64,000 nucleotides of DNA. It comes from Planctomycetota bacterium. GTDB taxonomy: Bacteria; Planctomycetota; Phycisphaerae; Phycisphaerales; UBA5793. Shown piece by piece: positions 511-17,832 of the stretch. Location: the NCBI GenBank assembly GCA_013112555.1, contig JABFGK010000002.1, positions 1,364,001-1,428,000 of the forward strand, given 5' to 3'. The notes under the pieces were generated by a model. The model did not search any database, had not been told where the DNA came from, and saw nothing but the letters and a program-made list of their open reading frames with translations. Position numbers and translations under genes: made by a program. Every line of letters begins with the position of its first letter. The first letter of the stretch is position 1.

Positions 511-1098
511 TTACGCGGCACCACTGAACAGCCCGGCAAACCCCATGAAGGCCAGCGACAGCAGGCCGGCGATGATCATGTTCAATGCCGTCCCCTTGAT
601 GACGCCGGGGATGGTGGACAGTTCGAGTTCCTCACGCAGGCCGGCCATCAGCACCAGCGCCAGCGTGAAGCCGGAACCGGCACCGAGTGCAAAGGCGAGC
701 CCTTGAATCAGCGTGTATTCCTTGCTCGTCTGGAACAACGCCAACGCAAGGATGGCACAGTTCGTCGTGATCAGCGGCAGGAAGATTCCCAGTGCGCGGA
801 ACAGGGCCGGGCTCAGTTTCTTGATCACCATCTCAACAAACTGCACGGTGCTGGCAATCACCACGATAAACGAGATGACCTGCAGGTATGGGGCGTGCGG
901 CAGGATGAAGGCGTTGAGGAACGAGGCACAAAGCGACGTGATCACCATCACAAAAATCGTGGCCAGCCCGAGGCGGAACGCAGTGCTGATGCGGCTCGAC
1001 ACCCCCATGAACGGGCAAATGCCCAGGAAGTAACTGAGCGTGAAGTTGTTAATCAAGCACGCACCGACGAAGATCCAGATGAGGTCTCTCATAATCAT
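511..1098 (-). CDS. rnfA: Rnf electron transport complex subunit A
   Basis: RnfA is an integral membrane subunit of the ferredoxin:NAD+ oxidoreductase that couples electron transfer to Na+ or H+ movement. The protein is about 195 residues, the normal family length, and consists almost entirely of hydrophobic helices (about six). It starts with the family-typical LIWIFVGACLINNFTLSYF and FLGICPFMGVS, and carries a second Cys site in LPLITTNCAILA. RnfA and RnfE are inverted-topology homologues whose Cys pairs are known to bind an iron-sulfur cluster in the membrane. The ATG at 1098 overlaps the rnfE stop (ATGA); a second ATG lies two codons on at 1092. Last gene of the operon. Confidence 0.95.
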   Translation of the reverse strand: MIMRDLIWIFVGACLINNFTLSYFLGICPFMGVSSRISTAFRLGLATIFVMVITSLCASFLNAFILPHAPYLQVISFIVVIASTVQFVEMVIKKLSPALFRALGIFLPLITTNCAILALALFQTSKEYTLIQGLAFALGAGSGFTLALVLMAGLREELELSTIPGVIKGTALNMIIAGLLSLAFMGFAGLFSGAA

Positions 1099-1823
1099 GA
1101 TGCTGAACCGACCTCCCCTCCGGCGTTTGCTTCGCCATCGGCTCGATGGCGGCGCTTGGCCCGGGTCTGACCCGCCCAGTTGAAGACCAACAGGATCATG
1201 CCGAGCATCAGGAACCCACCCGGTGGCAGGATCATGATGACCCACGGTTGGAAGTTCGATCCCATGATCGGATACTTGAACAGCGTGCCGGACCCGAGAA
1301 TCTCGCGCGTGGCCCCAAGACACAGCAGGGCAAAGGCAAAGCCGATCGACATGCCGATCGCATCGGCCACCGCATACAGCGGCCGATTCCGACTTGCAAA
1401 CGCTTCCTGTCGCCCGAGGATGATGCAGTTAACAACGATCAGTGAGATAAACGCACCCAGGTCCTTATGGACGACGGGGAACGCAGCCTTGAGGGCCATG
1501 TCGGCCACCGTAACGAATGTCGCAATGATGATAATATAGGTACTGATGCGCACCTGCTTGGGAATGAAGGATCGCAGCAGTGAGACAAAGATGCTGGAAA
1601 ACACGAGGACGAAGGCAGTGGCTGCCCCCATTGCGACGGCATTGATGGCGCTGTTCGTCACGGCCAGCATCGGGCACATGCCCAGCACCTGGACGAATAC
1701 CGGGTTTTCCTTCCAGATTCCCTTCGCAAACTCACGGTACATCCGATCGGGATCGACGCTGCCGCCGCCGGCCTGTTGCTGGCTGCCCAACATGAGCGGG
1801 TTGGATGATCCTGAATCAGCCAT
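1095..1823 (-). CDS. rnfE: Rnf electron transport complex subunit E
   Basis: RnfE pairs with RnfA in the membrane core of the Rnf complex. It has about 242 residues and six predicted helices, with the conserved NPVFVQVLGMCPMLAVTNSA near the N-terminus and LIVVNCIILGRQEAFA in the middle, each with the Cys expected for the intramembrane Fe-S site. I start it at the ATG at 1823 (MADSGSSNP), which overlaps the rnfG stop by 8 bases; a longer open frame upstream lies inside rnfG and is low-complexity. The C-terminus ends in a charged, Ala/Gly-rich tail after the last helix. It overlaps rnfA by ATGA, so the two are almost certainly translationally coupled. Confidence 0.94.
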   Translation of the reverse strand: MADSGSSNPLMLGSQQQAGGGSVDPDRMYREFAKGIWKENPVFVQVLGMCPMLAVTNSAINAVAMGAATAFVLVFSSIFVSLLRSFIPKQVRISTYIIIIATFVTVADMALKAAFPVVHKDLGAFISLIVVNCIILGRQEAFASRNRPLYAVADAIGMSIGFAFALLCLGATREILGSGTLFKYPIMGSNFQPWVIMILPPGGFLMLGMILLVFNWAGQTRAKRRHRADGEANAGGEVGSAS

Positions 1824-2700
1824 TGTCCGGATCCTCCTCTCCCTCGGTGTCAGATTCAGCGTCCTCTGACGATTCCTCGGCCGGCGGTTGCTCGGCCTCT
1901 TGCTGCTGTTGCTGCTGCTCATCATCAATCACGATGAAGGCCGGTTCGTCGCCCGGCTTGGGCAGGCGTGGCAGCCAGTCGGCTGTGGACTTTTGGAGAA
2001 TCTTCACGACGGCTTTCGATGAGATCGTGGCCCCGGTGATGGCATCAACCTGGTTCTTTGCCGTGGGGTTGTCTTTCACCAACTCAATTGAGGGATCAAC
2101 GGTCAGGAACAGGAAGTTCTCCGCGAACTTCGGGTCCTTATAGATCTTGTCCCCGAGCCCGGGCGTCTCACGGCTTTCCAGGATCTCCATCCCGGTAATG
2201 TGACGTGGTTCGTCCGGCAATACAGCCCGCGGATTAAAGCCGTACAACAGTCGAATCGTGTCCTGGAAGCCGGCACCCGCTGCTTCAATGGCATAGCCGA
2301 TGAACTGTCTGTTCTCGTCGTAGGCACCGTAGATGACCAGGCCGGCCGGTGGCTCCTCCGAAGCCGATGATTCCTCGCCTGCCCCATCTGCTGATTTCTT
2401 GGGGGACCAGGCAACCAACTCCTCTTTATCTTCATCCCAGACCAGCGGCTGGAGTTGCGTTGAGTCGGGGACGACCTTGAAGACGGCTGCCTGCAGCGCT
2501 TCTGCGTTGTTCGCTTCGATGATCGGGAGCGTGATCTCATAGGCGGCTGCCAACAGCAATCCGGAGAGCATGGCTGCAATGGCCAGGGTGGCGACCAGCC
2601 GCACGCTGCTGACCTGTGAATCGACGGCACTGACGGTCAACTCGACCGACGTGGATTCGACGTCTGGTTGAGCGTCCGGCGGTGGGGTGTTGGTTGTCAT
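1816..2700 (-). CDS. rnfG: Rnf complex subunit G, covalent-FMN flavoprotein
   Basis: RnfG carries FMN bound covalently to a Thr on the outer face of the membrane. The protein has 294 residues: an N-terminal cytoplasmic tail, one membrane helix at about residues 33-55, then an FMN-binding domain. The flavinylation motif TGAT is at residues 222-225 (within VDAITGATISS), preceded by the typical ETPGLGDKI. Two additions are unusual: an acidic insert at about residues 88-118 and a low-complexity tail with a run of six or more Gln followed by an acidic stretch ending in DPDNG. The start overlaps the rnfD stop by ATGA. Confidence 0.93.
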   Translation of the reverse strand: MTTNTPPPDAQPDVESTSVELTVSAVDSQVSSVRLVATLAIAAMLSGLLLAAAYEITLPIIEANNAEALQAAVFKVVPDSTQLQPLVWDEDKEELVAWSPKKSADGAGEESSASEEPPAGLVIYGAYDENRQFIGYAIEAAGAGFQDTIRLLYGFNPRAVLPDEPRHITGMEILESRETPGLGDKIYKDPKFAENFLFLTVDPSIELVKDNPTAKNQVDAITGATISSKAVVKILQKSTADWLPRLPKPGDEPAFIVIDDEQQQQQQEAEQPPAEESSEDAESDTEGEEDPDNG

Positions 2701-3806
2701 GATGCCACCGCCTTTCCACCCTCAGTTCGGCCGAAGGCACGCGGCTGGCCGACGCGTTCGATCAGCGGGGTGGCTGCGTTCATCAGGAGGATGGCATACA
2801 TCACCCCTTCGGGCAGCCCACCCCAGTTTCGAATCAGGACGACGAGCAATCCGATCCCGATCCCGAACACGATGGTCCCGCGCGGGGCAATCGGTGAGGT
2901 CACCGGGTCGGTGGCCATGTACACGGCCCCGAACAGCAGCCCGCCCGACGTGAGCATGTGCAACGGGGTGGCAAACCGCTCTCCATTCAGCAGCCAGAGG
3001 ATGAGGCTGAAGATGCCGACGGTCGCCAGGATGGACAACGGGATGCGCCAGTCGAAGGTGCGGCGGATGGCCAGGATCAGGCCGCAGATGAGAATCAGGA
3101 TGGCACACGTCTCGCCGAGCGAGCCGGCGGTATTGCCCACCAGGAGATTGTTCAGTGACTCGGCCTGTCCTTCAAACTTGAACATGCCCAGCGGGGTCGC
3201 GGTCGTGATGGTATCGACGGGTGGCGGCGGTTGCATGAACGGCAGCGCGAAGTTGCTCGGCCGGATCGTCGAGAACTCGGCCACGGTGCCCTGGCTCGAC
3301 CAGGTGGTGATGGCCTGTGGGAAGGCAGCCTGCAGAAACGCTCGGCCGACAAGGGCCGGGTTGAACAGGTTCTGCCCGAGCCCGCCGAAGGCGAGTTTGC
3401 CCAGGCCGATGCCGGCAGCGCCCCCGAGAAACGCCATCCACATCGGAATTGCAGGCGGCAGACACAGGCCCATCAGAATCCCGGTCAGGACGGCCGAGCC
3501 GTCTTTCAGTGATCGTCCTCGCGGTTGCCCGCCGGGCGGCAGGATGAACTCGGTGAAGGCAGCCCCGGCAGTCGCTGCCAGGATGATGAGAATGGCACTG
3601 AGACCGAAAAAGTAGATCGCAGCCAGCACAACCGGGCCGAGTCCGAGGATCACATCGACCATCAACCGCGGGGTCGTGACGCCTTTGCGCAGAAACGGGC
3701 CGGCCTTCAGCAGCAGTTCCGGTGACGGCGGCGGGGAGCCACCTCCCGATGAGGACGGTGAGGAAACGGTCGGTCGAGATGGATCGTTTGGTGCGAGAGG
3801 CGGCAT
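2697..3806 (-). CDS. rnfD: Rnf complex subunit D, membrane flavoprotein
   Basis: RnfD is a multi-helix membrane subunit that, like RnfG, carries covalent FMN. The 369-residue product has a Pro/Ser-rich N-terminal extension of about 30 residues followed by around nine hydrophobic helices. The flavinylation motif is seen at DTITTATPLG (about residues 198-207 from this start), with the conserved GLGQNLFNPALVGRAFL upstream of it. I start at the ATG at 3806; an in-frame TTG at 3812 gives two more residues. It begins 87 bases after rnfC, the widest gap in the rnf part of the operon, and overlaps rnfG by four bases. Confidence 0.94.
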   Translation of the reverse strand: MPPLAPNDPSRPTVSSPSSSGGGSPPPSPELLLKAGPFLRKGVTTPRLMVDVILGLGPVVLAAIYFFGLSAILIILAATAGAAFTEFILPPGGQPRGRSLKDGSAVLTGILMGLCLPPAIPMWMAFLGGAAGIGLGKLAFGGLGQNLFNPALVGRAFLQAAFPQAITTWSSQGTVAEFSTIRPSNFALPFMQPPPPVDTITTATPLGMFKFEGQAESLNNLLVGNTAGSLGETCAILILICGLILAIRRTFDWRIPLSILATVGIFSLILWLLNGERFATPLHMLTSGGLLFGAVYMATDPVTSPIAPRGTIVFGIGIGLLVVLIRNWGGLPEGVMYAILLMNAATPLIERVGQPRAFGRTEGGKAVAS

Positions 3807-3893
3807 AGTCAATCTATGAGCAACGGATCCGCGCGGGATCAGTGGGGGGTTGGTTCGGTGTTCATCAACTAGCGTCCGGGCGCGCGACGCGTC

Positions 3894-5315
3894 CTACTTC
3901 TTCGTCTCGTTTCGTCGTTCCTTTGCCTGGCGTGCCCGAATGGCTGACTTGGCAGCACGGATCAAGTGCACGATGGGGATCCCGGAGGGGCAGGTAAATG
4001 TGCAGGCGCCGCACTCGACGCAATCCATGATGTGGACACCGTTGAGTTCATCAAGTCGGCCGACCCGAGCCAATCGAGCGAGTCGTGACGGATTGAGGAA
4101 GTTGCCGCATGCCTCAAGGCACCGCCCGCAGCGCACGCAGGCGTACTCCGATGAATGAACGACTTCCCGTTCGGTAAACGCGAGCAGCCCACTCGTGCCT
4201 TTGAGGACCGGCACGTCGAGCGAGGCCAGCGGTTGCCCCATCATCGGCCCGCCCATGATGACTTGGCGTGTATCCGTCCGCAGGCCGCAGTGTTGCAGCA
4301 CTTCGCGTACCGGGGTGCCGATCGGGACCAGCAGGTTCGCCGGGCGAATGACACCGGAGCCGGAGACCGTGAGCAAGCGCTCGATGACCGGTTGGGAGCG
4401 CAGGAAGTAATCACTGATGGCGGCCATGGACCCGACGTTGTTGACGACGATATTGAGATCCAGCGGCAGTTTGCCGGCCGGCACCTCCTCGCCGAACAAG
4501 GCCTTGATCAGCATCTTCTCAGCACCCTGCGGGTACTTCACTTTCAGCGGCATCACTGCCAGATCGAACGCAATCGGGCGGCCGGCCTGGGTCGCCTGAT
4601 CGCGATAACGGTCGCAGGCCTCTTCAAGCGCGACGATCGCATCGAGTTTGTTCAGTTCGACGCCGATGACCACCTGGTCGGCATTGAGTTTCGTGGCCAC
4701 CATGCAGGCACCTTGCACGACCGCATCCGGCTGCTCCACCATGAGCCGATGGTCGCAGGTGAGGTACGGTTCGCACTCACACCCATTGATGACGAGGCGT
4801 TCGCAGCGTTTCCCGTCCGGGAGTTTGTACTTCACGTGCGTCGGGAAGGCCGCCCCGCCCATGCCGACGAGTCCGGATTGCTGGACGCGCGCGATGAAGT
4901 CATCCGTTGAGAGGTCATACCAGTCCTTGAGTGTGCTGCCGGCCGGGCCGTGAATCGTCTGATCATCAAAGGGGTCGGCCTTGATTTCAATGGCCTGGAC
5001 CATCGAGCCGTTCGGGTGACGATGTGAGCCGACGTTGGCCACACGCCCGGCCACTGGGCTGTGCAGGGTCGGCGACACGAAGCCGCCCGGTTCTGCGATC
5101 ATCTGCCCGCGTGTGACCGATTGCCCGGCCGTGACGACGGCCCGACATGGTGCGCCGAGGTGTTGGGACAGCGGCAGGATATAACTCGACACGAACGGCA
5201 GGCGCTCGACTTCGAGATGCTCGGTGCGTTCCTTGTGTTCGTCCGGGTGGATGCCGTGTCGAAAACTCGCCGGCTGGATGACGACCCCGCCGCTGGTGAC
5301 TGCCGTTGTGGTCAT
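3894..5315 (-). CDS. rnfC: Rnf complex subunit C, NADH-site Fe-S protein
   Basis: RnfC is the peripheral subunit thought to exchange electrons with NAD(H). The 473 residues show a barrel-sandwich N-terminal region (HSPVAGRVANVG), the Nuo51-like nucleotide-binding stretch GLVGMGGAAFPTHVK at about 148-162, a SLBB-like region, and two [4Fe-4S] motifs near the C-terminus: CVRCGRCLEAC (about 393) and CVECGACTFTCP (about 432). The first motif has CGN in place of the usual CP. A basic tail (RQAKERRNETKK) closes the protein. Its ATG overlaps the stop of the large NifJ-like gene by ATGA, which ties that unusual gene into the rnf transcript. Confidence 0.95.
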   Translation of the reverse strand: MTTTAVTSGGVVIQPASFRHGIHPDEHKERTEHLEVERLPFVSSYILPLSQHLGAPCRAVVTAGQSVTRGQMIAEPGGFVSPTLHSPVAGRVANVGSHRHPNGSMVQAIEIKADPFDDQTIHGPAGSTLKDWYDLSTDDFIARVQQSGLVGMGGAAFPTHVKYKLPDGKRCERLVINGCECEPYLTCDHRLMVEQPDAVVQGACMVATKLNADQVVIGVELNKLDAIVALEEACDRYRDQATQAGRPIAFDLAVMPLKVKYPQGAEKMLIKALFGEEVPAGKLPLDLNIVVNNVGSMAAISDYFLRSQPVIERLLTVSGSGVIRPANLLVPIGTPVREVLQHCGLRTDTRQVIMGGPMMGQPLASLDVPVLKGTSGLLAFTEREVVHSSEYACVRCGRCLEACGNFLNPSRLARLARVGRLDELNGVHIMDCVECGACTFTCPSGIPIVHLIRAAKSAIRARQAKERRNETKK

Positions 5316-8300
5316 GATTCACGTCCCCCCTGCCCGTTGTTCGTGTCGGAACCGGAGGGAGTGTACCCGGCCATCTGGAGCAATCGCCCGGTGACCCGTT
5401 GGGCAGCATCGGCTTCAAAGCCGGCCTTCAAGTCGGCCAGTTTCTGCTCATACTCACGGCGCAGATCAGCGAGTTCCTGCTCGTGGGTCTGGGCGGTCTC
5501 CTGCTCGATCTGTCGCCGGACCTGCTCCGTAAACGGCGTGACGAAGCCGGCCAATTCCTGCAGCGTCTGCCAGAACTTCTGCTGCCGCCGCCCCTCGGCC
5601 ATCAATGTGGGCGACACAACCAGGCGCTCAGTAGGACCGGCAACGTAGGCAGTGCAATCAGCGGCCTGAGAGGCCGGGAGTGATAGATATTCATCGACCG
5701 CGGTCGGTGCTGTATCGCTCGATGCATTGAGTGGACGGAAGTGGTCGGCAAAGCGCGATTCGGTCACGGCCCAATGGATCGGGGTCAGTGCGTGGCCGTC
5801 CGGTGACTGTACCCACATCTCATGCGACTCCGGATTGGCCGTGATATCGAGGCGCGAACCGAACACACCGCTGCCTGCGGCCGGGTCGTAGGTGAACAGC
5901 GGGAAGGCCCGGGAATCGACGGCCAGTTGTGCCTGACGGAACAGGTCGGCAGCGTTGAAGCCGTGCCGCTCCGGGCTCGGTGCATGGATATGGACCAGTG
6001 CCGGGCCGTCATGGTCAAGCGATGCGAGGATGCTCTGCGCAAAGTGTGTCGGGTTGGCAATCGAGGCCTGGGTGACAAACGCCTCGCGCGATAACAAGGC
6101 CAGGAACGCAAGATCATCGCGCTGAACCATCGGGTACGGGCACATGGCATCGACCGCATGGCCGGCGGCATCTGCTTTCCCGCCGAGGTCGCTCAGGATG
6201 AAGACCTTGATCGGTCGGCCGGTCTCAAGCGCCCAGGCGATTTGTGAGAGTTCCCCGGTGCCGAGTCCGGAGCCGTTGCCGACCACGATCATCGGTGGGC
6301 ACAACGGCTTTTCTGTGTCCGTCAATTGTTCAAACGTGAGGCGCTTCAGGTTCTGCACCGCCTGCTTGCGCGCTGTCGCGGCCTTCGGGAGCGGGTCGGG
6401 GCCGTCGCCGGTGAGCATCGCTGCCCAGCATGAGCCGGATGCCGGCCAGCGTCTGATCGATCTGGCCTTCCAGCAGGCCGCGGGCGACATGACATGAATC
6501 AGCCCCGAAGTCAATCAGGACCGGGCAGGCAAACGGATTGAACGGGAAGGCGCCGCTTGCCTGGGACGTCGGGCCGGAGGCAATGGTCAGACCGACGCGG
6601 GCTCGTCCCAGGCCGTCGGGACCGGTGCCGATGCGCCACTCAAGATCAGCCAGGCCGCGGGCCGCTTCAACGAGCCGGTTCAAGGCAGCCCCGTCAACCG
6701 AGCCGGAGTGGACGGCCCCATCAACGCGCGATGCAAGGTCTGCGACGCTGAACTCATCACGTGCCAGCGAATCAAGCCCCTCTGCCAATGCATCGAGATC
6801 CGAGGTCGGCAAGGCATCGGCCAACTGCGTCCGGATTCGATCGGCCAGCGTCGATCGCAGTTGGTCGAGTGTGTGCAGTTGTTCCTGGAGTCGCGGCTGG
6901 AGGTGATACTCGCACAGGGCCAGCACGTGCCGCAGGGCGAGTTTGGCACCCGAGCCAGGCTCAGCCCCATCGCCGGCTGCCATGGCAAACTGGCAATGAC
7001 GCGATAACAGAATCGCAGCCAGCGACCCGACGGCAGCATGCTCGGTGACACGGGCGATCGTTGCGCCCGGCGGTATCGGGCAGTTTCTGCCACAGTGCCC
7101 AGAGTTTGCGAGCCCTGCTTAGACGCTCGGGCGTCTGCGGGACGACCTTCAGGCCGCGGCCCTTGCATGTGTTGGCAACCACTTCGGGGCACTTGCACGC
7201 ATCCGGATTCACAATCAGCGAGAACAACTCACCTGAGCCGCTCGTGATCTTTTCAGCATCGTCAAAAAACACCGGGGTACGGCAGACGACGATCGCGCCG
7301 ATTTGTGTGATCACCGAATCCAGTGCGGCCGTAAGTCGTTTCTGGCGGTCATCCTCGGGATCGGTGCCCTCGGTGACCTGGTCAAATGCGACGGTCAGCA
7401 GGCGGCCGAGTTCCGTCGGGGCCGGGTCGGCCGTGGTGGCCGACTTGACGATTCGGTTGACACGGGCTGCCAGTTTTCCGGCAATGGATGCGAGTGTGGT
7501 GGCGGCTGTGTCGCCGGCTTCACCGGCCAGACGAATCCCGGTATCAATGAGGCTGCGGGCCGAGGCGACCATCGGGACGACGGACCCATCAGGACAACTC
7601 GTCCACAGTGCGCCGTTGCCGTCACAGGTCGCCGGGTCGAACTCGAGGAATGTTGTACGGGCACCGCTGACATCGCGGAACATGGCCGTCAGTGGGGGGA
7701 TGGTTCCAGTGGCCAGATACGGATCGGCCGTCAGTTCGTCCGTCTCGCCGCGCAGTAACGGTTGACCGGCCTGTCCCCAGAAGCGGGCGACGCATTCCAC
7801 GCCGGCGTCAGGCCGGCTCAACTCGCCCACGATCGCCGGGACCGAGTGACCGCTGTCTGCATCGGTCGGCAGGGTCGTCGCTGCCGTGAGATCCGGGATG
7901 CCCGCCACCGATGTTGAATCCATCGCTGCAGCAAAGACAGCCAGACGTGCCTCGATGTCGGGCTCATCCAACCGTTCGTGGCTCAAGGATTCGCGTCGTG
8001 CAGCGCACGCCTTGTCCGGGGACAGCACAGCCTTGAATGATTCGTGTTCCGCCAGTGCTGCGGTGATCGCTGCCAGAGATGTTTCGAGAATCGTGGCTGC
8101 AGGGGGCGCTGCCTCCGATGTGCTTGGGCCGGCCGTCGCACGATACACGGTGATGTTCTTGGTGAGTAGCACCTGGGCAGTGGCTGCAGACAGGGGCGGC
8201 ATTGATGCTTCGGCTGCATCGTCCGTCACGAGAATGACGCGTGCCCCCTCCATCAACCGCTTCGTGATCTGTGGGGCATGCCACGGTGTCCCGGAACCGG

Positions 8301-10182
8301 CCGGGTGAATCACGACGGCACAATCGAGCGGCGTGTCATCGCCGGGATCAAACAGGGTACCGGCGCCGGACCCGGATGCCTTGCTGCCGTGCTGCTTGTC
8401 GGGCAGAATACTGACCGTGTCGACGCACTGTTGATCGAATCGCTGCCAGGACAAGCCGGGCCGACTGCGGATCAGTGCCGGCTGCAGGAGGTCGTGGAGC
8501 AACGCGCCGGCCTCGCCGGCAATCGGCTCGTACCGACTCCCAGCCGGCCGACAGACGGCCAGCGAAAACGTACCGGCCGGCCGCAGATCGACCACGTTCG
8601 GCGTGACGGTGCCGGCAGACGCTGCGCCTGTGTGTGCTGTGATCCCGATCGTGGAGAGATCGGTATCGGAACGCCGCCGCAGCGCATCATGCAGTGCCTG
8701 CCGCTTCGGGTACTTGCTCTGTTTCCGAATGAAGTCCAGGCCCAGATAGTGGGTCGAATCGGTGAGCGACTCTGGATTCTTGTTGGCTTGTTCAACCAAT
8801 GCGAACAGGTCGGCTGCCTGTATTGGCCGGCCCCCACAGCCGCAGGCAATCGCAGCCAGGTGTTGCTGACTGCGTGATGCATGGCCCGCATGCTTCTGAA
8901 TGGCCGTGCGGATTTCTCGAGTCAGCGGCAGATCACCATCCGCGAGCGTATTGGCAATGCGTTCGAGAACGAGGACGGTGGGCACTGCGTTCAGATGCTG
9001 GGCAATGAGCGCGCCCGGGAACGGTCGAAGTGTGCGAATCCCGAGGACGCCGACCTTGAGATTGCGGGTCCGAAGCAGCCAGTCTGATAGCGCACAGGCG
9101 GTATCAACAAGTGAGCCCTGAGCCACGAGTACGATCGAGGCATCGCGCAGTCGGTGGGTGTGTACCGGGTGATAGGATCGACCGGTGAACCGCTCGAACA
9201 GTTTGAAGGCATCGGTCAGGATCGGCTCAATCTGCTGGTCGGAGTACACCTGGCGGGCAGCGGACCCGAGGGCCCACAGGTCGCGATCCTGCAGGCTCCC
9301 CAGCATCATGGGGCGTTCGAGATCAAACCAGCGCGGGATGCGACGCCGTTGCTCGCCGAACAACATCTGTTGAGCCACGGTGGGCGATGTGATGTGATCG
9401 GCCGGCTGCCCGACGAAACGACGCAGCATCTGCTGGTCATCTGCCAGTTTCAGATCCTGCAGGGCAATGGCAGTCTGTTCGCCATCCATACCGACGATGA
9501 CGGGGCACAATGCCTGTTCAGCAACTCGGCGGGCAATCAGTGCGAAGTCGGCAGCCTCCTGAACCGTGTTTGCAAACAACTGGATGCAGTTGGCAACGGA
9601 TGCGGCTGCATGCCATGCTTCATGCCCGGATCCAATCGCACAGGCGTGCCCGGCTGCAGCGCGGCAGGCGAGGGAGACAACCATCGGCGCGTTGCGGCCG
9701 GCTGCCGTGGCCAGTGTGTCAAGCCCGCCGGCCATGAGGTCGGTCCCGGACAGAGCGCACGAAGCGCGCTGGCCCGAGAGACTCAGGCCCAGGGCTGCGC
9801 TGAGCGTGCCGCGCGGGTCGAGCGTTTCGATGTGAAGCAGTGGGTGATCAAACGCATTGGCGTTGGATCGCAGGCCTTGTTGTTTCGCAAACGCGCGGGC
9901 GCCGGCCGAAGCCGGGAACGAACACCCGAGCACGCCGTCGGTGCAGAGGCAGGCGTCGAGATAGGCGGTCGCCGACATGCCGTCGAGTGCTGCCGGATGG
10001 CCGGGACTCGGTTTGATCGTATCGAGTTCGTCCTGTGAAACGTCTGCGGCGGTCGAGGCGAGCCCGGGGGCTGCATAGTCGGTACCGTGTGCCGTATCGG
10101 CCGGACTCGACGAGTCAGACTGACGGCGGCGATGAATGAGGCGTTTCAGCAGGTTGGCTGATGCAGATGCGAAGCTACTCAA
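5312..10182 (-). CDS. Giant NifJ/PFOR-like protein embedded in the rnf operon (two frameshifts)
   Basis: Reading one continuous protein needs two single-base corrections, near 7060 and near 6427, each explained by one extra G in a GGG run. The corrected product is about 1,620 residues; ordinary NifJ is about 1,200. The N-terminal part looks like PFOR domain I (substrate/pyrimidine-binding fold), then a transketolase-C-like domain, a gamma-like region and a Cys-poor stretch. The C-terminal part resembles the thiamine domain VI: VGNGSGLGTGELSQIAWALE aligns with the GDGWAYDIGYGGLDH type motif, and FPLFTYDPA with the NifJ PLYRYDP segment. Key metal/thiamine positions appear changed (GDG to GNG, NTGGQ to DLGGK), and the usual two ferredoxin clusters are not evident. 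It ends in a coiled coil. The start is TTG at 10182, overlapping the rnfB stop; the first ATG is 68 codons later. The 4-base overlap with rnfC suggests a partner of Rnf rather than an independent enzyme. Confidence 0.75.
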
Positions 10183-11029
10183 TGTGCACCCCCGTCAAGG
10201 CCACGGGCAGATCCTCGTGCTCAAACTGGCCGTGCTCCACCCATTGGATGGCCCCGGTTGGGCAGCGGAAGGTGGCCTCTGGCAGAGCCGGTCCCCCGGC
10301 GGCATAATCGACAACGGGCAGGTTGTTGCGCATAGTGATCAATCCCGGGGCTGCATCCTGAGCACATCGCCCGCAGGCATCGCAGGTCACCTGACAGACG
10401 GCCCGTGCTGCATCCCCTTCCAGCGGGGCACGGCATTGAACGATGAGTTTGTGACTGACCGGCAGGCACTCGAACAGGTCACGAGGGCAGGCATCGACGC
10501 AGTCGCCGCAGGCCGTACATTTGTCAACATGCACGACCGGGAGCCGGTCATGATTCATGTGGATTGCATCAAACGTGCAGGCCGTCATACAGTCGGCCAG
10601 ACCGAGGCATCCCCAGGCACAGCCCTTGCCGCCGCCACCGACCAGATGGGCGGCCCGGCATGATGCGTACCCTTCGTATTCCGCAATCTGACGGGCCTGG
10701 CTGATCCCGCCGGCACAGTACAGACGGGCCACTTGCTTCTCCTGGGCCCCGGCATCGACGCCGAGAAACGCAGCGATCGACTCGATCGTATCGGGATCGG
10801 AAACGGTGCACTTGCTCGGGGCGTTGATCCCGCTGACCAGTGATTCGGCAAAGGCACGGCACCCGGCTTCGCCGCAGGCCCCGCAGTTCGAGCCGGGGAG
10901 ATTCTCCTCGACCAGGTCGAGACGCGGGTCTTCCTCCACATGCAGAAAACGATGGGCCACTGCCAGGCCGATTCCGAAGAACAGGCCAAGTCCCATCATG
11001 ATTCCAACTGCCGTCAACGTCGTCAGCAT
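10175..11029 (-). CDS. rnfB: Rnf complex subunit B, polyferredoxin
   Basis: RnfB accepts electrons from reduced ferredoxin. The 284-residue product has one N-terminal membrane helix, the Fe-S domain NLPGSNCGACGEAGCRAFAE (about residues 44-63), then ferredoxin-like motifs: CAWGCLGLADCMTAC and CTACGDCVDACP. A further motif, CDACGRCAQDAAP, lacks the fourth Cys expected in CxxxCP, and what should be the next motif keeps only its last Cys (FRCPTGAI). At least one C-terminal cluster is therefore degenerate. The ATG at 11029 (MLTTLTAVGI) fits the membrane helix; a TTG start at 11053 is possible. It follows the ferredoxin-tailed PFOR-like gene by 41 bases and its stop overlaps the start of the giant NifJ-like gene. 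Confidence 0.92.
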   Translation of the reverse strand: MLTTLTAVGIMMGLGLFFGIGLAVAHRFLHVEEDPRLDLVEENLPGSNCGACGEAGCRAFAESLVSGINAPSKCTVSDPDTIESIAAFLGVDAGAQEKQVARLYCAGGISQARQIAEYEGYASCRAAHLVGGGGKGCAWGCLGLADCMTACTFDAIHMNHDRLPVVHVDKCTACGDCVDACPRDLFECLPVSHKLIVQCRAPLEGDAARAVCQVTCDACGRCAQDAAPGLITMRNNLPVVDYAAGGPALPEATFRCPTGAIQWVEHGQFEHEDLPVALTGVHIE

Positions 11030-11070
11030 CTGACTGCTTCCGGGGTAAGGCAAAGCGGTAGGGGGGGTCC

Positions 11071-13791
11071 TCAGTTGAACGGTTTGGCCCGTTTGATCAA
11101 CTCATCCACATTCGGTTCATCCGGGTTCAAGGGCAGTCCGGGATGGATGCAGCGACTCGGGCACTTCTCGGCAGCCTTGACAATCTGTTCATAGGTCCCG
11201 GCCTTCGGGTCGCCGATCGTTGCCTGCTTCGAGGCGTTGTAGACGAACACCTGCGGGTTGATTCCCATGCAGTCGTTGCAGGTGGTACACAATGGGCTGT
11301 CGATCCAGGGTTCTTCAGAAAACGGCTCATCGTCCTCGACCACGTCTGCGGCCGCCGGCTCCGATGATTCGTCCGTATCCACTGCGGTGTTTTCATCAGT
11401 TTCCTCGGCAGGGCCGGCCGTCGGAATCGGCCGAGCCACCGGTGTCATGGCGCTCAGGGCCGAGACATCCGTATTCAACAGTGACTGCGCCAGGCGTTGC
11501 ATGACCTCCTCGGCGGCGGTGGACCGAGCCTGTTGTACGTCCTCGGCATGGGTCCGGGCCAGCGCTTCTCGCTCTGCTGCGAACTCCTGGGTCAAGCGAT
11601 CACGTTCAGCCGCCACGGCCTGATCGACGTATTCGCTGCGCGTACCGGCCATCTCTTGTAGGATGCGCCAGAAGCCGATCCGATCCCGGCAGGTAAACGC
11701 GAGTCGGCGACGCATCACGAGGCGGCACATGCGCCCGCTGCCGTCCACGGCCCAGAGATACGGCACATGGTCAATGGCATCCCGAACGCTCAACTTGAGG
11801 TAGTCATCCAGCGGGATGAACTCATTGCCTTCACACTCATCCGGCAGAATACGGAACAGGTCCCGATACCGGTCCTCCATCAGTGCATAATCTGCGAACG
11901 TGAAGGCGAGTCTCAACTCCTGCTCGCCCTGATCGGCAGTGCGGCAGGGCAGGTCATACAGCGGCCAGTCTTCGGTCGGCTGCGGGTTTTCCGATGCATC
12001 AAAGCGGTGGGCCCAGGATATGCCGCGAGCCGGGTCATACTGGAATAACGGGTGTGCCCGGGCTTCGATGGCTGCCGACCCATGCAGCCACGGACCGAGT
12101 GCCGGCGTGGCGCGGGTCGTGGACAGACAGGAACAGACCACGTGCAGCGAGGCCCGGGTCGATTCGAGCGTCCGCTCGATGCCGCTGATGAAGTGGTCCG
12201 GCCGGGCGGGGCTGGACTGCAGGATCAGCGATTCCCGATGACTGATGCCGCGATACCCGAGTTCGAAACGCCAGCCGGTCAGTTGATCCTGATCGGTCGG
12301 CAGGCCTGGATTCATGCCGGGGTGCACGATGACCATGGCGGCCACCGGCCGACCGGACAGTTGCAGCCTCGAAATCGAGAGCATGGCCTGGCCATCCAGA
12401 TGGTCCGCTGCTTCCACGGCGAGGATGCGCGGCAGGCTGATCAACTCCTCGCGCGAAAACGCTTCCCAGTCAAAGGCCTTGAGCAGGTGGTCGTGACGCG
12501 GCGACTCGTATGAATTATCAAGTTCGAGTTCTGCCAGCCGCATCGTGCCGAACAACTGAGCATGCTCGCCGGCAATGGTTTCATACAGGGTCGCGGCCTC
12601 ATCGCAGACGGCCGCATCGGCACCGATCAAGTGGCATGACACACCGGGCGTGTCCGTCTGGAACGCGAGCGCGTCAGGCGTCACCACATGGAGCACCGGC
12701 TGATCCGTCACCGCCAGGAACTGCTCAAACAGTACAATCGCCTCTTCAATGCGAATTCGTCGAACGGGGTCCATCGGCTGCGCACCGCGCGACGGGCCGA
12801 TGATTCGTGCCAGAGAGGCCGGATCAACGAATTCAGCGCCGGCATCGCCGACCATCGACATCATGTTCTTTTCGCGCTTCTCGACCGGATCCTTGGACAG
12901 TTCGATCAGCAGCAGATCCTTGAGTTGCGTTCGAAGCCGGGACACCTCGGCTCGCAGGTCGGCATAGCGCTGGGCAGCAATGCGGGATGCGACGTGGAGG
13001 TACAGGTGCACCGATGTGATTTCCGACAAGCCGAGCAGGCGGCCTTCTTCGGGAATCAGACCGAGCAGTTTCGCTGTATCCGCGTCCCAGTTCCCGGCAC
13101 TCGTCGGGCTGAGGTCGAGTGAGCCCCGGGTGGCCTCGATCGCTTGCCTCACCGTGTCGAGCGCGCCGACCGGCGACCCGTCCCCCGATTCGATCGTCCG
13201 GCAGATGGACTTCTCAATGCGCGGCAGATTGTCCTTCAGGACGCGCGCGGCCTCGGGATCAGCGGCAAAGGACTCCACCAGGCCCGGGAGCCACTCATGC
13301 AGGGGCATGGTGTGACAGGCGCCATCCCCGGTGTCCGTCGCGGAAGTCGGGGTAAGGTACAGCGGATAATCATGTCGCAAGCGGTCTGCATTACGAAACG
13401 GGTGCAGGAGTGCCGGGATCACGTCCGCGCCGGGCGCGGTTAACGTGTCCGGTGATCCTGGATCATCGCGGTGAAATCGGCGTGCAGCGCGCAGCGACTT
13501 GATGATGCGATCATCATCGTCGGTGACGGCACGCCCAAGCGTCGGCAGGAGCGGCAAGTCGAGGCTCGGGTCTGACACCACGTCATCGCTCGGTGCCTCA
13601 GCCTTTCCTTTCCGCTGTCGAGCCTTGTTCAGCCACCCATCGAGTGAGTCGTCACGAGGAGACATCGTGTCGCTCGGCTCGCCCGTTTTTTGGGATTCGC
13701 TCGAATCCACGGTCTCGGCACCCAACACCTCATCACCTCCGGATTCGTCGGTCACCTGGTGCGATGACGTACTGCCTGATTCTGTGTGCAT
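11071..13791 (-). CDS. PFOR-like protein with C-terminal ferredoxin domain, unknown function
   Basis: About 906 residues from the ATG at 13791 (MHTESGSTSS), 17 bases after korB; a longer frame would overlap korB. An acidic, disordered N-terminal region of about 80 residues is followed by a large region I do not recognise. From about residue 460 it resembles the C-terminal region of the giant NifJ-like neighbour: HPLFQYDPA matches FPLFTYDPA there, WRILQEMAG matches WQTLQELAG, and both continue into a Glu/Ala-rich coiled coil. The last 75 residues form a small ferredoxin domain with CTTCNDCMGINPQ and, later, CPSRCIHPG, enough for one [4Fe-4S] cluster. I see no thiamine-binding motif. The position between korB and rnfB suggests an electron carrier or adaptor between the oxidoreductase and Rnf; that role is inference. 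Confidence 0.75.
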   Translation of the reverse strand: MHTESGSTSSHQVTDESGGDEVLGAETVDSSESQKTGEPSDTMSPRDDSLDGWLNKARQRKGKAEAPSDDVVSDPSLDLPLLPTLGRAVTDDDDRIIKSLRAARRFHRDDPGSPDTLTAPGADVIPALLHPFRNADRLRHDYPLYLTPTSATDTGDGACHTMPLHEWLPGLVESFAADPEAARVLKDNLPRIEKSICRTIESGDGSPVGALDTVRQAIEATRGSLDLSPTSAGNWDADTAKLLGLIPEEGRLLGLSEITSVHLYLHVASRIAAQRYADLRAEVSRLRTQLKDLLLIELSKDPVEKREKNMMSMVGDAGAEFVDPASLARIIGPSRGAQPMDPVRRIRIEEAIVLFEQFLAVTDQPVLHVVTPDALAFQTDTPGVSCHLIGADAAVCDEAATLYETIAGEHAQLFGTMRLAELELDNSYESPRHDHLLKAFDWEAFSREELISLPRILAVEAADHLDGQAMLSISRLQLSGRPVAAMVIVHPGMNPGLPTDQDQLTGWRFELGYRGISHRESLILQSSPARPDHFISGIERTLESTRASLHVVCSCLSTTRATPALGPWLHGSAAIEARAHPLFQYDPARGISWAHRFDASENPQPTEDWPLYDLPCRTADQGEQELRLAFTFADYALMEDRYRDLFRILPDECEGNEFIPLDDYLKLSVRDAIDHVPYLWAVDGSGRMCRLVMRRRLAFTCRDRIGFWRILQEMAGTRSEYVDQAVAAERDRLTQEFAAEREALARTHAEDVQQARSTAAEEVMQRLAQSLLNTDVSALSAMTPVARPIPTAGPAEETDENTAVDTDESSEPAAADVVEDDEPFSEEPWIDSPLCTTCNDCMGINPQVFVYNASKQATIGDPKAGTYEQIVKAAEKCPSRCIHPGLPLNPDEPNVDELIKRAKPFN

Positions 13792-13808
13792 GGTGTGCTC
13801 ATCATCAT

Positions 13809-14762
13809 TCAGATGGCAAAGCGGTCCAGAGCGGCATTCATGCCTCTGATCTTCTCTTCCGCCGTCATCCCGAGTCCCTGGGTCATGTAGTCCTCGTAGC
13901 ACGGCCTCGTTTCGTCCTGGAACAGGAGGCCGATCGGGATCTTGTCCTTGCGACCGGCAATCGCCAGCGCCTCATTCAGGTCGGCCGGGTCATGTTCCAG
14001 TTTGTTCGGGTACATCCGTGCAACGGAGGGATCCAGCGTGATCCCGTCATCGTCCGTCAGCAGGAGGACCTGTGACGGGTCCTTCTGGGCTTCTTCGTAG
14101 ACATCGGCGGTGTATTGCGGGCACCGCTGGTGAATGTGGACGAAACTGAGGCCGCGGTGCTTGTAGGCTTTGAGCAGGGTCGCATGAAGGTGGACCGGAT
14201 TCCAATCCACGGTCTTGGCGACAAACGAGACGTTCGTGAATCCGAGCGTTGCCGTCGCCGGGTTCAGCGGTGGCAGCCAGGCACCGCGCGGGTGTGTATT
14301 CGTGACTGTTCCCGCACTCGTGGTCGGTGACGTCTGCTTCTTTGTCAGGCCGTACACGTTGTTGTCAAACAGCATGACGACCATGTTCATGTTGTACCGG
14401 ATGGCATGGATCCAGTGGCCGGCACCGATCGAGCAGCAATCGCCGTCGCCGGTGGCGACCCAAATCGTCAGGTCGGGCCGGCGTGCTTTGACACCGCAGG
14501 CCACCGGCAGGGCTCGCCCGTGCAGGCCGTGGAAGCCATAGGTATGCATGTAGTGCGGGAAACGGCTGGAGCAGCCGATGCCGGACACGCACACCGTCTT
14601 CTCCGGTGCGAGTTGTTCATCACGGCAGATTCGCTGAACCGCAGACAGCACCGCATGATCACCGCAGCCGGGGCACCAGCGAGCGACACCACCCTCGTAA
14701 TCCTCCAACGAGAAGTACCGAGGCAGGACGTCCAGCGACCAGTCTTTCTTGAGTCCAAACAT
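13809..14762 (-). CDS. korB: 2-oxoacid (2-oxoglutarate):ferredoxin oxidoreductase, beta subunit
   Basis: The beta subunit binds thiamine diphosphate and a [4Fe-4S] cluster and, with KorA, converts 2-oxoglutarate plus CoA to succinyl-CoA while reducing ferredoxin. The 317 residues show the N-terminal RWCPGCGDHAVL (Cys at about 30 and 33), the intact thiamine motif GDGDCCSIGAGHWIH, and FDNNVYGLTKKQTSPT. Unlike in the giant neighbour, these catalytic elements are complete. It lies five bases after korA. The family also contains pyruvate and other 2-oxoacid enzymes; the KorB assignment rests on overall resemblance and on the gamma-alpha fused partner. Confidence 0.9.
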   Translation of the reverse strand: MFGLKKDWSLDVLPRYFSLEDYEGGVARWCPGCGDHAVLSAVQRICRDEQLAPEKTVCVSGIGCSSRFPHYMHTYGFHGLHGRALPVACGVKARRPDLTIWVATGDGDCCSIGAGHWIHAIRYNMNMVVMLFDNNVYGLTKKQTSPTTSAGTVTNTHPRGAWLPPLNPATATLGFTNVSFVAKTVDWNPVHLHATLLKAYKHRGLSFVHIHQRCPQYTADVYEEAQKDPSQVLLLTDDDGITLDPSVARMYPNKLEHDPADLNEALAIAGRKDKIPIGLLFQDETRPCYEDYMTQGLGMTAEEKIRGMNAALDRFAI

Positions 14763-14767
14763 AGTGG

Positions 14768-16777
14768 TCAGGCCCCCTGTCCATCATTGGTGTTGGGTGC
14801 AGCCGCAGCGGGCGTCTTCGGCCGGCCGGTCTCGTCAGCCAGATCCATCCCCTGGAGTCGTTGCATCACGACGTCATATATCTGGCCGGGTCGGAGCGGC
14901 TGGCCGGAGTTCAAGGACCAGTAGTCGATGTCCCGACGCGTGCGCCCTCGCAGAATCAGCGCCAGTTGGGCCGGGCGCCCCGGTTGCGTCTCAGTCATCA
15001 GCCCGCCGGGCGGATCGCTGTAGTTCGCCTCGACCGTCAGGATCTTGTCAAAATGCTGGAAGATGGCACGGAGCCCAGGTTCCAGAGGCCAGAGGAAGCG
15101 AATATGGAGTGATGACACCTTGTGCCCCTGCTCACGGGCCCGGTCCACAGCCTCCTCGATGGCCCCGAGCGTCGACCCCCAGCCGACGACCAGCAGGTCA
15201 CCTTCTTCATCCCCGTGAATCTTCGGCGGCTTGAGCGTCGAGCGCAGCGCTGCGAGTTTCCGGCTACGCATCTCGCACCCGTCGATGTGTGCTTCGGGGT
15301 CGTATGCCACCTTGCTCTGTCGCGTATGTGACAAGCCCGTGAGGACGTATTCCCCACCCCGCTGCCCGGGTATCGGTCGCGGGCTGATCCCGGTTTCCGG
15401 ATCCCAGTCGTAGGGGGCCGTCCCCTCTTTCCACGGAGATTGGTCAATCGGTGGGGCGAGCCACTCTTCCTTCGGTTGCGGCCGTGGAATCGGCTGAACG
15501 CCGGTCGCAAGGGCCGCATCGGTCAGCAGAATCACCGGGGTCCGGAATGCTTCGGCAATCCGACGGGCAGTAATCACCAGATGGAAACACTCGTCAATCG
15601 TGGCCGCGGCAATAATCGGCTTCGGTGCATCGCCCGGCGCGCCGTACATGGCAGCCAGCAGGTCGGCCTGTTCCGGTTTGGTCGGCAGCCCGGTGGCCGG
15701 CCCGCCTCGTTGCACGTCAACAATCACCAGCGGAACTTCGCTCATCACGGCCAGCCCGATGAACTCGGTCTTCAGTGCCAGGCCTGGCCCGGAGGTGATC
15801 GTGCAGGTCGTCTTGCCGGCATACGAGCACCCGATGGCAAAGCCGATCGCTGCGATCTCGTCCTCGGCCTGGTGCACGATCCCGCCTACCTGGTCAAAAG
15901 CGCCGGCCAGATAGTGTGAGGCCGAGGTGGCCGGTGTGATCGGGTACATCGACACGACTTCAATACCGGAGGCCATGACACCCAGTCCGAGCGCCTGATT
16001 GCCGTTGAGCACGATCAGATCCTGCTTCGTCTCCATTGGCGGGACTTCGAAGCAGAAGTCGATATGTTTGCGGGCGAACTCGACGCCACCCTGAACCAGT
16101 TGCTGGTTCGTCTCGACGACCTTGGCCCCTTTGCGGGCAAAGAGATTGTGCACTTCCTCCATCGCCATGGACGGATCACGCTGGTAGATCTCGCACAGCA
16201 TCCCGACGATGAACATGTTCTTGCCGAGTCGGGGGTTGGCCGTGTATTCAAGGCAGGCCTCCTCGATCGCCAGTTCATGCACGATCAGGCCGCGCTCGCG
16301 GAACATGGCGACAGCCTCGGCATAGGCCTGTCGGATTTCCTCCGAGGGATCCTTGGCCCACTTGTTCTCCAGCAGGAGAATCGTTCCCTCCCGATAGGCC
16401 CCCTGCTCGAGGCGGCCGTAGAGCACCTGCTCGTTGAACGCCACGACCAGGTCGGCTTCGTCACCCATATTGGTAATCTTGGTCGAGCCGAGTCGGATCC
16501 GAATCCCGCTGGCACCGGCTCGTGATCGAGCCGGCGGCTTGATTTCTGCCGGGATGATCTCGACCGTCCAGGCCCCGTTGCCCATCTTGGCCGTCACGGT
16601 GCCGAACGTCACCCCTGCCTTCTGCGCCCCTTCACCTGCGTCGCTGACAATCTCGACGATGTGCTGTGACACTCGAGTCGCCTGGTGCCCGGCCTGTTTC
16701 GCGCTGTGATCAGGGACAACGTCCTGATCATCAACGCACGACACTCCTGCCTTCTCGGCCATGCCTACCGCTCCCAT
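14768..16777 (-). CDS. korA: 2-oxoacid (2-oxoglutarate):ferredoxin oxidoreductase, gamma-alpha fusion subunit
   Basis: Partner of KorB and first gene of the operon. The roughly 665-residue protein has an N-terminal gamma-type domain (about residues 38-245, with VEIVSDAGEGAQKAG) fused to the alpha subunit, marked by NGNQALGLGVMASG, the substrate motif YPITPATSAS (about 279-288), TITSGPGLALKTEF and VDVQRGGPATGLPTK. This gamma-alpha fusion is the common bacterial KorA layout. Two starts are possible: ATG at 16777, or ATG at 16762 (MAEKAG), which has a GGGAG ribosome-binding site 8 bases upstream and looks better. The divergent sirtuin gene starts 287 bases away, so the operon promoter should lie in 16778-17064. 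Confidence 0.92.
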   Translation of the reverse strand: MGAVGMAEKAGVSCVDDQDVVPDHSAKQAGHQATRVSQHIVEIVSDAGEGAQKAGVTFGTVTAKMGNGAWTVEIIPAEIKPPARSRAGASGIRIRLGSTKITNMGDEADLVVAFNEQVLYGRLEQGAYREGTILLLENKWAKDPSEEIRQAYAEAVAMFRERGLIVHELAIEEACLEYTANPRLGKNMFIVGMLCEIYQRDPSMAMEEVHNLFARKGAKVVETNQQLVQGGVEFARKHIDFCFEVPPMETKQDLIVLNGNQALGLGVMASGIEVVSMYPITPATSASHYLAGAFDQVGGIVHQAEDEIAAIGFAIGCSYAGKTTCTITSGPGLALKTEFIGLAVMSEVPLVIVDVQRGGPATGLPTKPEQADLLAAMYGAPGDAPKPIIAAATIDECFHLVITARRIAEAFRTPVILLTDAALATGVQPIPRPQPKEEWLAPPIDQSPWKEGTAPYDWDPETGISPRPIPGQRGGEYVLTGLSHTRQSKVAYDPEAHIDGCEMRSRKLAALRSTLKPPKIHGDEEGDLLVVGWGSTLGAIEEAVDRAREQGHKVSSLHIRFLWPLEPGLRAIFQHFDKILTVEANYSDPPGGLMTETQPGRPAQLALILRGRTRRDIDYWSLNSGQPLRPGQIYDVVMQRLQGMDLADETGRPKTPAAAAPNTNDGQGA

Positions 16778-17064
16778 GATCCTGTGACATCAATAGGGGG
16801 GATGCCGATCATCGATCGTGGCGGTGGTCGGCAGCCGCGCAACTCAACAAGATTACCTACCATCGGCTCCAATTCAATTGCAATGCCATCAAACGGAGCA
16901 GAACTTCGGATTGTCACCGTTCATTTGGTGGTAACACCGGAGCCGATCATACTCTGGAACGTCGCGCGGTTCGCTCAACGGTGGACGGCGACTGCCAGCG
17001 TGTGAATCTGGGTTGTCCGGATCCACCGATGGGACACTTAAAACCCCGCTATACTTGTCCGCTT
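16778..17064. promoter_or_regulatory. Divergent intergenic region between korA operon and sirtuin gene
   Basis: Contains the promoters of both divergent units. On the plus strand TATACT at 17050-17055 is a good -10 candidate for the sirtuin gene; it ends only 9 bases before the ATG, which would give an almost leaderless transcript. I find no convincing -35 for it, and no clear promoter for the minus-strand operon. Confidence 0.4.
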
Positions 17065-17832
17065 ATGGGTATTCAACTTGATCCCGAACTGGTCGATGCC
17101 ATCCGCGCTGCGGAGTCGGTCGTCGTCATGACCGGCGCCGGCATCTCTGCAGAGAGCGGTATCCCCACCTTCCGCGATGAACTGACCGGCATGTGGGAGA
17201 ACTACGACCCGGAGCAGTTGGCAACGCCGCAGGCATTTGAGCGCGACCCGGAAACCGTGAGCCGATGGTATGACCAGCGCCGGGCCAACATTGCCAAGTG
17301 TGAGCCGAATGCCGGCCACCAGGCACTGGCGACGCTGGAACGCTGGCAGACGAAGGACCGGGGCCGCCGCTTCACCCTCCTGACGCAGAACATCGACGGC
17401 CTGCACCGTCGGGCCGGCAGTGCCAACGTCGTTGAACTGCACGGCACCATTTGGCGCTGGCGGTGTACCAAGACGGGACGCGAACGCGAGTACCGGCACA
17501 TCCCGTTCCCGTCCTATCCACCGCTGTCTGAAGATGGGGGATTGCTCAGGCCGGCCGTCGTCTGGTTCGGGGAGATGCTGCCCGAGCGTGAGATGATGAC
17601 GGCCCAGCGTGAATGTGAATCGTGCGATGTGTATTTCTCGATCGGGACCAGCACCCAGGTGTTCCCAGCCGCCGGGCTGATTCAGTTGGCCCACGCCTCC
17701 GGTGCCAGGACGGTCGAGGTGAACCCGGAGACAACGCCGGTCTCGAATCTGGTGGACTGGTCGCTCCGAGGCCCGGCCGGCACGGTCCTGCCGGGGCTGG
17801 TTGAACGGGTCATGCCACCAACCGGAACGTAA
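17065..17832 (+). CDS. Sirtuin (Sir2/CobB family) NAD-dependent deacylase
   Basis: Sirtuins remove acyl groups from lysine using NAD+. The 255-residue protein has the NAD motif TGAGISAESGIPTFRD (residues 23-38), TQNIDGLHRRAG (107-118), the catalytic His in VVELHG (His126) and RPAVVWFGE (162-170). A YxxR motif (Tyr69, Arg72) matches the signature of class III sirtuins that prefer succinyl or malonyl groups. The zinc module is odd: where the family has two CxxC pairs, only Cys134 is visible between residues 126 and 170. I start at ATG 17065 because the sequence upstream has no sirtuin character and TATACT sits just before it. Confidence 0.9.
   Translation: MGIQLDPELVDAIRAAESVVVMTGAGISAESGIPTFRDELTGMWENYDPEQLATPQAFERDPETVSRWYDQRRANIAKCEPNAGHQALATLERWQTKDRGRRFTLLTQNIDGLHRRAGSANVVELHGTIWRWRCTKTGREREYRHIPFPSYPPLSEDGGLLRPAVVWFGEMLPEREMMTAQRECESCDVYFSIGTSTQVFPAAGLIQLAHASGARTVEVNPETTPVSNLVDWSLRGPAGTVLPGLVERVMPPTGT

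Follow-up and report, generated by a model that had tools for sequence, protein, structure and literature searches.

A minus-strand gene cluster in a Planctomycetota bacterium (order Phycisphaerales; GenBank assembly GCA_013112555.1, contig JABFGK010000002.1) probably encodes an electron module leading from 2-oxoglutarate to the Rnf complex, in which two relatives of pyruvate:ferredoxin oxidoreductase (PFOR), here called F and P, would serve as pseudo-PFOR subunits bridging the 2-oxoacid:ferredoxin oxidoreductase KorAB and Rnf; the complex, the electron path and its direction are what we infer. The cluster runs from 16777 to 511 of the stretch analysed (64,000 nucleotides, positions 1,364,001 to 1,428,000 of the contig; hereafter the window, whose coordinates are used throughout) in the order korA-korB-F-rnfB-P-rnfC-D-G-E-A. 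The gene order and its conservation, the loss of catalytic residues, the retention of cluster motifs, purifying selection and the common descent of F and P are established, and the operon thus appears to represent a broadly conserved new variant of Rnf with putative pseudo-PFOR bridge subunits. Its features are as follows, all on the minus strand (ORF, open reading frame; TPP, thiamine pyrophosphate).

14768..16777 (-): korA, 2-oxoacid:ferredoxin oxidoreductase alpha subunit with the gamma domain fused N-terminally (TIGR03710 at 512 bits, cut-off 482.75; POR_N, POR, PFOR_II)
13809..14762 (-): korB, beta subunit, TPP motif and [4Fe-4S] cysteines intact (motifs WCPGCG, GIGC, GDGD, RCP)
11071..13791 (-): F, pseudo-PFOR with a C-terminal ferredoxin tail, 906 aa (Fer4_13, homologues, AlphaFold2 model, Foldseek matches to PFOR)
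11323..11634 (-): predicted coiled-coil helix and disordered linker of F ahead of the ferredoxin domain (AlphaFold2 model, residues 720-823)
11137..11289 (-): single [4Fe-4S] motif of the F tail, CTTCNDC...CP (four cysteines in 79/79 homologues)
10175..11053 (-): rnfB (TIGR01944 above cut-off; PF04060)
5312..10182 (-): P, second pseudo-PFOR, one ancestral gene spread here over three frames (tblastn with the single-ORF homologues L085, L087 and L090)
6961..10182 (-): first frame of P, 1073 aa, degenerate PFOR domains I-V (POR_N, PFOR_II; tblastn match to 7066)
7594..7626 (-): remnant of the first domain-V [4Fe-4S] motif of P, outer cysteines alone kept
7165..7197 (-): remnant of the second domain-V [4Fe-4S] motif of P, inner cysteines gone
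6330..6983 (-): second frame of P, start of degenerate domain VI, proximal cluster cysteines gone (tblastn match to L085 P)
5312..6514 (-): third frame of P (400 aa), degenerate PorB-like domain VI and C-terminal coiled coil (tblastn match to L085 P; NCBIfam PorB matches)
3894..5315 (-): rnfC (TIGR01945, 488 bits)
2697..3812 (-): rnfD (TIGR01946)
1816..2700 (-): rnfG (FMN_bind; TIGR01947 slightly under cut-off)
1095..1928 (-): rnfE, true start probably internal (TIGR01948 above cut-off)
511..1323 (-): rnfA, true start probably internal (TIGR01943 at 225.6 bits, cut-off 229.3)

All genes named in the initial annotation, i.e., korAB, rnfB-C-D-G-E-A and two large proteins in one minus-strand run, lie at the place and on the strand given there, and one cluster encodes all six Rnf subunits (A, B, C, D, E and G), each carrying the domains of its family, RnfA and RnfG being full-length matches though slightly under the NCBIfam cut-offs. 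The run had also been described as joined mostly by overlaps of 4-8 bases, which holds for rnfB/P (8 bases), P/rnfC (4) and rnfD/rnfG (4), but korA/korB, korB/F, F/rnfB and rnfC/rnfD are separated by gaps of 5, 17, 17 and 81 bases, respectively, and the extent of the long overlaps between rnfG, rnfE and rnfA hinges on the choice of start codon. The frame of F is open up to 13902, its natural ATG being at 13791. The positions assigned to the two extra proteins, one between korB and rnfB and the other between rnfB and rnfC, are right, but the second of them extends past 6961 to 5312.

That both large proteins derive from PFOR, as had been supposed, is borne out by their sequences, by their key residues and by the folds predicted for them. 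P carries POR_N and PFOR_II domains and matches solved PFORs at E 1e-14, and F aligns with the C-terminal half of giant PFORs. F is barely annotated today: Pfam sees only its ferredoxin tail (Fer4_13, 31.1 bits, cut-off 24.5) and the NCBIfam profiles gave no match to it. Window F and a P homologue of 1143 aa (locus L131) were modelled with AlphaFold2, at mean predicted local distance difference test scores (pLDDT) of 79.9 and 76.9, and both models found PFOR chains as their best matches in the PDB (E 2e-6 and 1e-31, respectively), the low global TM-scores restricting the likeness to the level of domains. The end of F is predicted to consist of a coiled-coil helix, a low-confidence linker and then a tethered ferredoxin domain with a CxxCxxC...CP motif.

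Catalysis appears to have been lost in both proteins. Taking the TPP-binding residues of PFOR (E64 and GDG...NT) as the criterion, alignment to canonical PFORs found the GDG...NT motif in neither window P, window F nor any P homologue, and in the same alignment the cysteines of the proximal [4Fe-4S] cluster of domain VI were absent from every P sequence and from window F. Searches with Pfam and NCBIfam profiles found no other recognised active or cofactor site in the bodies of F and P. The catalytic residues of F are gone and the four cysteines of its tail are kept throughout; both domain-V CxxCxxCxxxC motifs are retained in most P proteins (inner cysteines in 42-44 of 53), and in the P of Planctomycetota (window included) and of two Bacteroidota they are cut back to the outer cysteines or further. 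Ratios of nonsynonymous to synonymous substitution rates (dN/dS) of 0.05-0.23 between close genome pairs designate F and P as maintained proteins and rule out general pseudogene decay. Judged by their residues, F and P are thus catalytically dead PFOR derivatives. The loss of domain-V cysteines with retention of P was seen in separate lineages (Bacteroidota L157 and L153, and all Planctomycetota), which suggests an additional, cluster-independent role for P.

P comprises ca. 1,600 codons in the window and continues past 6961 through the ORFs at 6330-6983 and 5312-6514. The P of L085, a single ORF of 1541 aa, aligned to the window by tblastn with 43% identity to 7066, 56% over 7079-6372 and 52% over 6352-5318, and P homologues are single uninterrupted ORFs of 1,230-1,600 aa. 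Read in this light, window P is split by two one-base frame breaks, either assembly errors or real. The ORF at 5312-6514 had been considered as a separate coiled-coil protein, which is ruled out by relatives showing the same stretch as the C-terminal end of P, and programmed frameshifting is ruled out in turn, the P of relatives needing no shift. A deltaproteobacterial genome encodes a P-like protein within an ORF of 2,431 aa (L183, 6408-13703), which may be a gene fusion or a frame that stays open by chance over a long distance.

To define the spread of the module, GTDB genomes were scanned with a profile made from an alignment of F relatives, which recovered 430 relatives, the best 80 of which were fetched and form the basis of the counts; a scan of genome contigs with window F as a single query had given no match, an alignment of relatives being required. 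These best 80 of 430 span at least nine phyla, with carriers in Phycisphaerales, other Planctomycetota, Gammaproteobacteria, Bacteroidota, Acidobacteriota, Myxococcota, SAR324, Krumholzibacteria, Gemmatimonadetes, Eisenbacteria and Opitutales, so that a module confined to planctomycetes is ruled out. The order korA-korB-F-rnfB-P-rnfCDGEA recurs across tens of genomes in many phyla, and a chance arrangement is thereby excluded. The neighbours of F homologues, whose tabulation had been proposed in the initial annotation, speak for the module as well: where the flanking sequence sufficed for a count, F has korB upstream at 70 of 71 loci (67 by automatic count and three in which overlong ORFs hid korB), and downstream follow rnfB (63 of 71), P (54 of 62) and rnfC (42 of 46). 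Four exceptional genomes carry korAB-F at one locus and the rnfB-P pair at another, which rules out that F and P always share one operon, and the genomes of two more exceptions (Opitutales and Pirellulaceae) have, at another locus, an rnf operon whose PFOR is of the intact type. F therefore stays linked to korAB and P to rnfB, as would be expected of a KorAB partner and an Rnf partner, respectively. On these grounds we likewise infer the dedicated electron module with adaptor subunits that had been proposed at the outset. P was not found in one small metagenome-assembled genome among those bearing F. In a phylum-wide sample, 103 of 392 genomes have rnfC above cut-off and only a minority bear the module, so Rnf systems do not all include it. 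Tree distances of F and P correlate at 0.93 (other gene pairs 0.85-0.91), a slight margin that we do not take as evidence of contact. Directly upstream of korA, ten gammaproteobacterial loci (L093, L099, L100, L102, L103, L107, L109, L121, L125 and L131) carry a small gene, a FAD_binding_2 protein and a NuoF-like protein (at ca. 1.5-7 kb of these loci), and the NuoF-like gene was seen in fifteen loci in all.

The probable ancestral type survives in other Planctomycetota, where a single catalytically intact PFOR of ca. 1,680 aa, which has this ferredoxin tail as well, sits between rnfB and rnfC, with korAB upstream. In a phylogeny of the domain-VI region, quickly built and with long branches, F and P each form a clade (support 100 and 86), are sisters (95) and stand beside these intact rnf-operon PFORs (93). 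The simplest history would be that an rnf-linked PFOR was duplicated and catalysis was then lost in both copies. An Opitutales genome (G404:C27) with an rnf operon containing an intact giant PFOR-ferredoxin (L184, 1305-11496) and a separate korAB-F (L164, 6581-11950) is a possible evolutionary intermediate. The window genome also has a second, catalytically intact PFOR-like protein (ca. 1,619 aa; L062, 10436-15295, G000:C1), unlinked to rnf, relatives of which recur in the phylum. PFOR-like proteins of ca. 1,480 aa at L058 (109-4527) and L060 (5534-9982) are close to the rnf-linked ones, lack the ferredoxin tail and are not beside rnf; their domain-V and proximal cluster motifs are intact, and L058 has GDV instead of GDG.

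The presence of sucC and sucD (succinyl-CoA ligase) inside the operon, between P and rnfC, in eight gammaproteobacterial loci points to 2-oxoglutarate/succinyl-CoA as the couple of KorAB, a substrate that would apply by extension to the window species. No recognisable E1 component of 2-oxoglutarate dehydrogenase (OGDH) was found in the window genome, nor in the genomes of L085, L086, L087, L090, L096, L100, L109 and L154.

We propose that catalytically intact KorAB would turn 2-oxoglutarate into succinyl-CoA (or the reverse), and that F and P stem from the duplication of an rnf-operon PFOR; both have lost the TPP site and the proximal cluster, and the PFOR shape would have been kept. The body of F would dock on KorAB and its mobile, tethered one-cluster ferredoxin tail would accept the electrons, for which the flexible ferredoxin domain of RnfB (PMC12174285) gives a precedent. 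P would be the Rnf-side partner beside RnfB, and the pair of domain-V [4Fe-4S] clusters that it has in most lineages could pass on to RnfB the electrons received from F; in the branch of Planctomycetota to which the window belongs, where about two cysteines remain in each motif, P may be mainly a docking body and the tail of F may feed RnfB directly. The path would thus lead from the KorB cluster to the F tail cluster, the P domain-V clusters (if present), RnfB, the remaining Rnf and NAD+, or in reverse, with Rnf reducing NAD+ and pumping ions or the ion-motive force pushing electrons back to KorAB. A stronger form of this proposal, which we put forward tentatively, is that KorAB, F, P and Rnf are joined in a single stable membrane assembly, i.e., a redox-driven ion pump in which NAD+ oxidises 2-oxoglutarate directly (or the reverse) over the dead PFOR pair as a bridge, with no soluble ferredoxin.

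Several observations weigh against the proposed bridge. P is interrupted by its two frame breaks in this assembly, most domain-V cysteines are gone in the P of the window lineage (which leaves no two-cluster wire there), one Thiomargarita genome (L182) has P without rnfB within the 18 kb examined, and 15 of 23 module-bearing genomes encode a full OGDH E1. The last count rules out that KorAB always replaces OGDH, and the module is therefore not simply an OGDH replacement, i.e., the 2-oxoglutarate enzyme of the tricarboxylic acid (TCA) cycle. These carriers keep OGDH for the oxidative step, which would suit a module running mainly in reverse, with NADH and the ion-motive force driving electrons via Rnf, P and F to KorAB for the reductive carboxylation of succinyl-CoA. 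Many carriers are sulfur-oxidising gammaproteobacteria and symbionts, and in tubeworm symbionts Rnf has been proposed to aid the reductive TCA cycle (PMC6315080). We nevertheless consider such predominantly reverse operation somewhat unlikely: the lack of a recognisable OGDH E1 in the window genome and four Phycisphaerales relatives is consistent with oxidative use there. Direction is not readable from sequence, and the bridge mechanism would be common to both cases.

The cysteine losses bear on two further explanations. If F and P were only structural or regulatory scaffolds tethering or gating KorAB at Rnf, with ordinary soluble ferredoxins carrying the electrons, the retention of P despite the loss of its domain-V clusters in Planctomycetota and two Bacteroidota would be readily understood, as would large bodies without a recognised cofactor site; we regard this as unlikely, however, given that the ferredoxin tail is the most conserved part of F, with its cysteines invariant, and that most P proteins hold two complete [4Fe-4S] motifs. 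It is less likely still that P is a decaying pseudogene in the window genome and the module on its way out. The one-base breaks and the reduced set of Fe-S cysteines would fit such decay, but identity to L085 stays at 43-56% in each of the three pieces of P on either side of the breaks, and F, KorAB and Rnf are all intact. In relatives, whose cysteines are likewise reduced, P is uninterrupted, and assembly indels account for the breaks equally well. Least probable is that F and P constitute a separate oxidoreductase acting on another substrate, placed beside korAB and rnf only through shared regulation. Structure or activity is known for neither protein, which leaves some room for it, but the TPP site, the proximal cluster and any other recognised active site are all missing, and F is strictly linked to korB, as P is to rnfB. 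A bridge between KorAB and Rnf thus remains our preferred reading.

Compared with described systems, the window operon shares the six subunits and their family domains with RnfABCDGE of C. tetanomorphum, A. woodii and A. vinelandii, but known Rnf complexes contain no PFOR-derived subunits and this operon encodes two putative ones. The only extra subunit named in a 2025 review of Rnf (PMC12174285) is RnfH of A. vinelandii RNF1, which has no cofactor, and 2-oxoglutarate and supercomplexes are unmentioned there. With PFOR of D. africanus (1B0P/7PLM) and M. thermoacetica (6CIN), F and P have the domain order, the predicted fold and, in most P, the two domain-V motifs in common; they differ in lacking the TPP site and proximal cluster and in being two non-identical paralogues, F being moreover shortened N-terminally and extended by its ferredoxin tail. 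The giant PFORs of rnf operons in other Planctomycetota and Opitutales (L044-L061, L184) resemble them in location between rnfB and rnfC, ferredoxin tail and, in Planctomycetota loci with flank, korAB upstream, but are single proteins with intact catalytic residues. The window's KorA and KorB are members of the same family as the 2-oxoacid/2-oxoglutarate oxidoreductases of S. tokodaii (5B46) and M. marinus (6N2N), which differ in being treated as users of separate soluble ferredoxins; we found no F- or P-like partners described for such enzymes. A dimeric korAB lies close to TCA genes in symbionts (PMC6315080), and in the Riftia symbiont a 'PFOR-like' gene is co-regulated with korAB, both decreasing in expression together, with no link to rnf proposed (PMC11636981). 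This gene, matched by description only, may be an F or P homologue in a setting where the module was not recognised. Our literature search, mostly outside subscription journals, found no published description of a KorAB-F-P-Rnf module.

Rnf is currently understood as an outlet for soluble ferredoxin. If the proposed bridge is true, an operon that hard-wires a step of the TCA cycle to Rnf and is conserved across at least nine phyla would constitute a new site of energy coupling, and it would explain how low-potential 2-oxoacid oxidoreductases can be used without reliance on the free ferredoxin pool; a direct, ion-pumping 2-oxoglutarate:NAD+ assembly would be an enzyme class that we have not found described. 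F and P also offer a clear case of an enzyme converted to pseudo-enzyme subunits, with the intact ancestral type surviving in other genomes. Directly upstream of korA, the window encodes a Sir2-family protein, oriented divergently on the plus strand (16981-17832).

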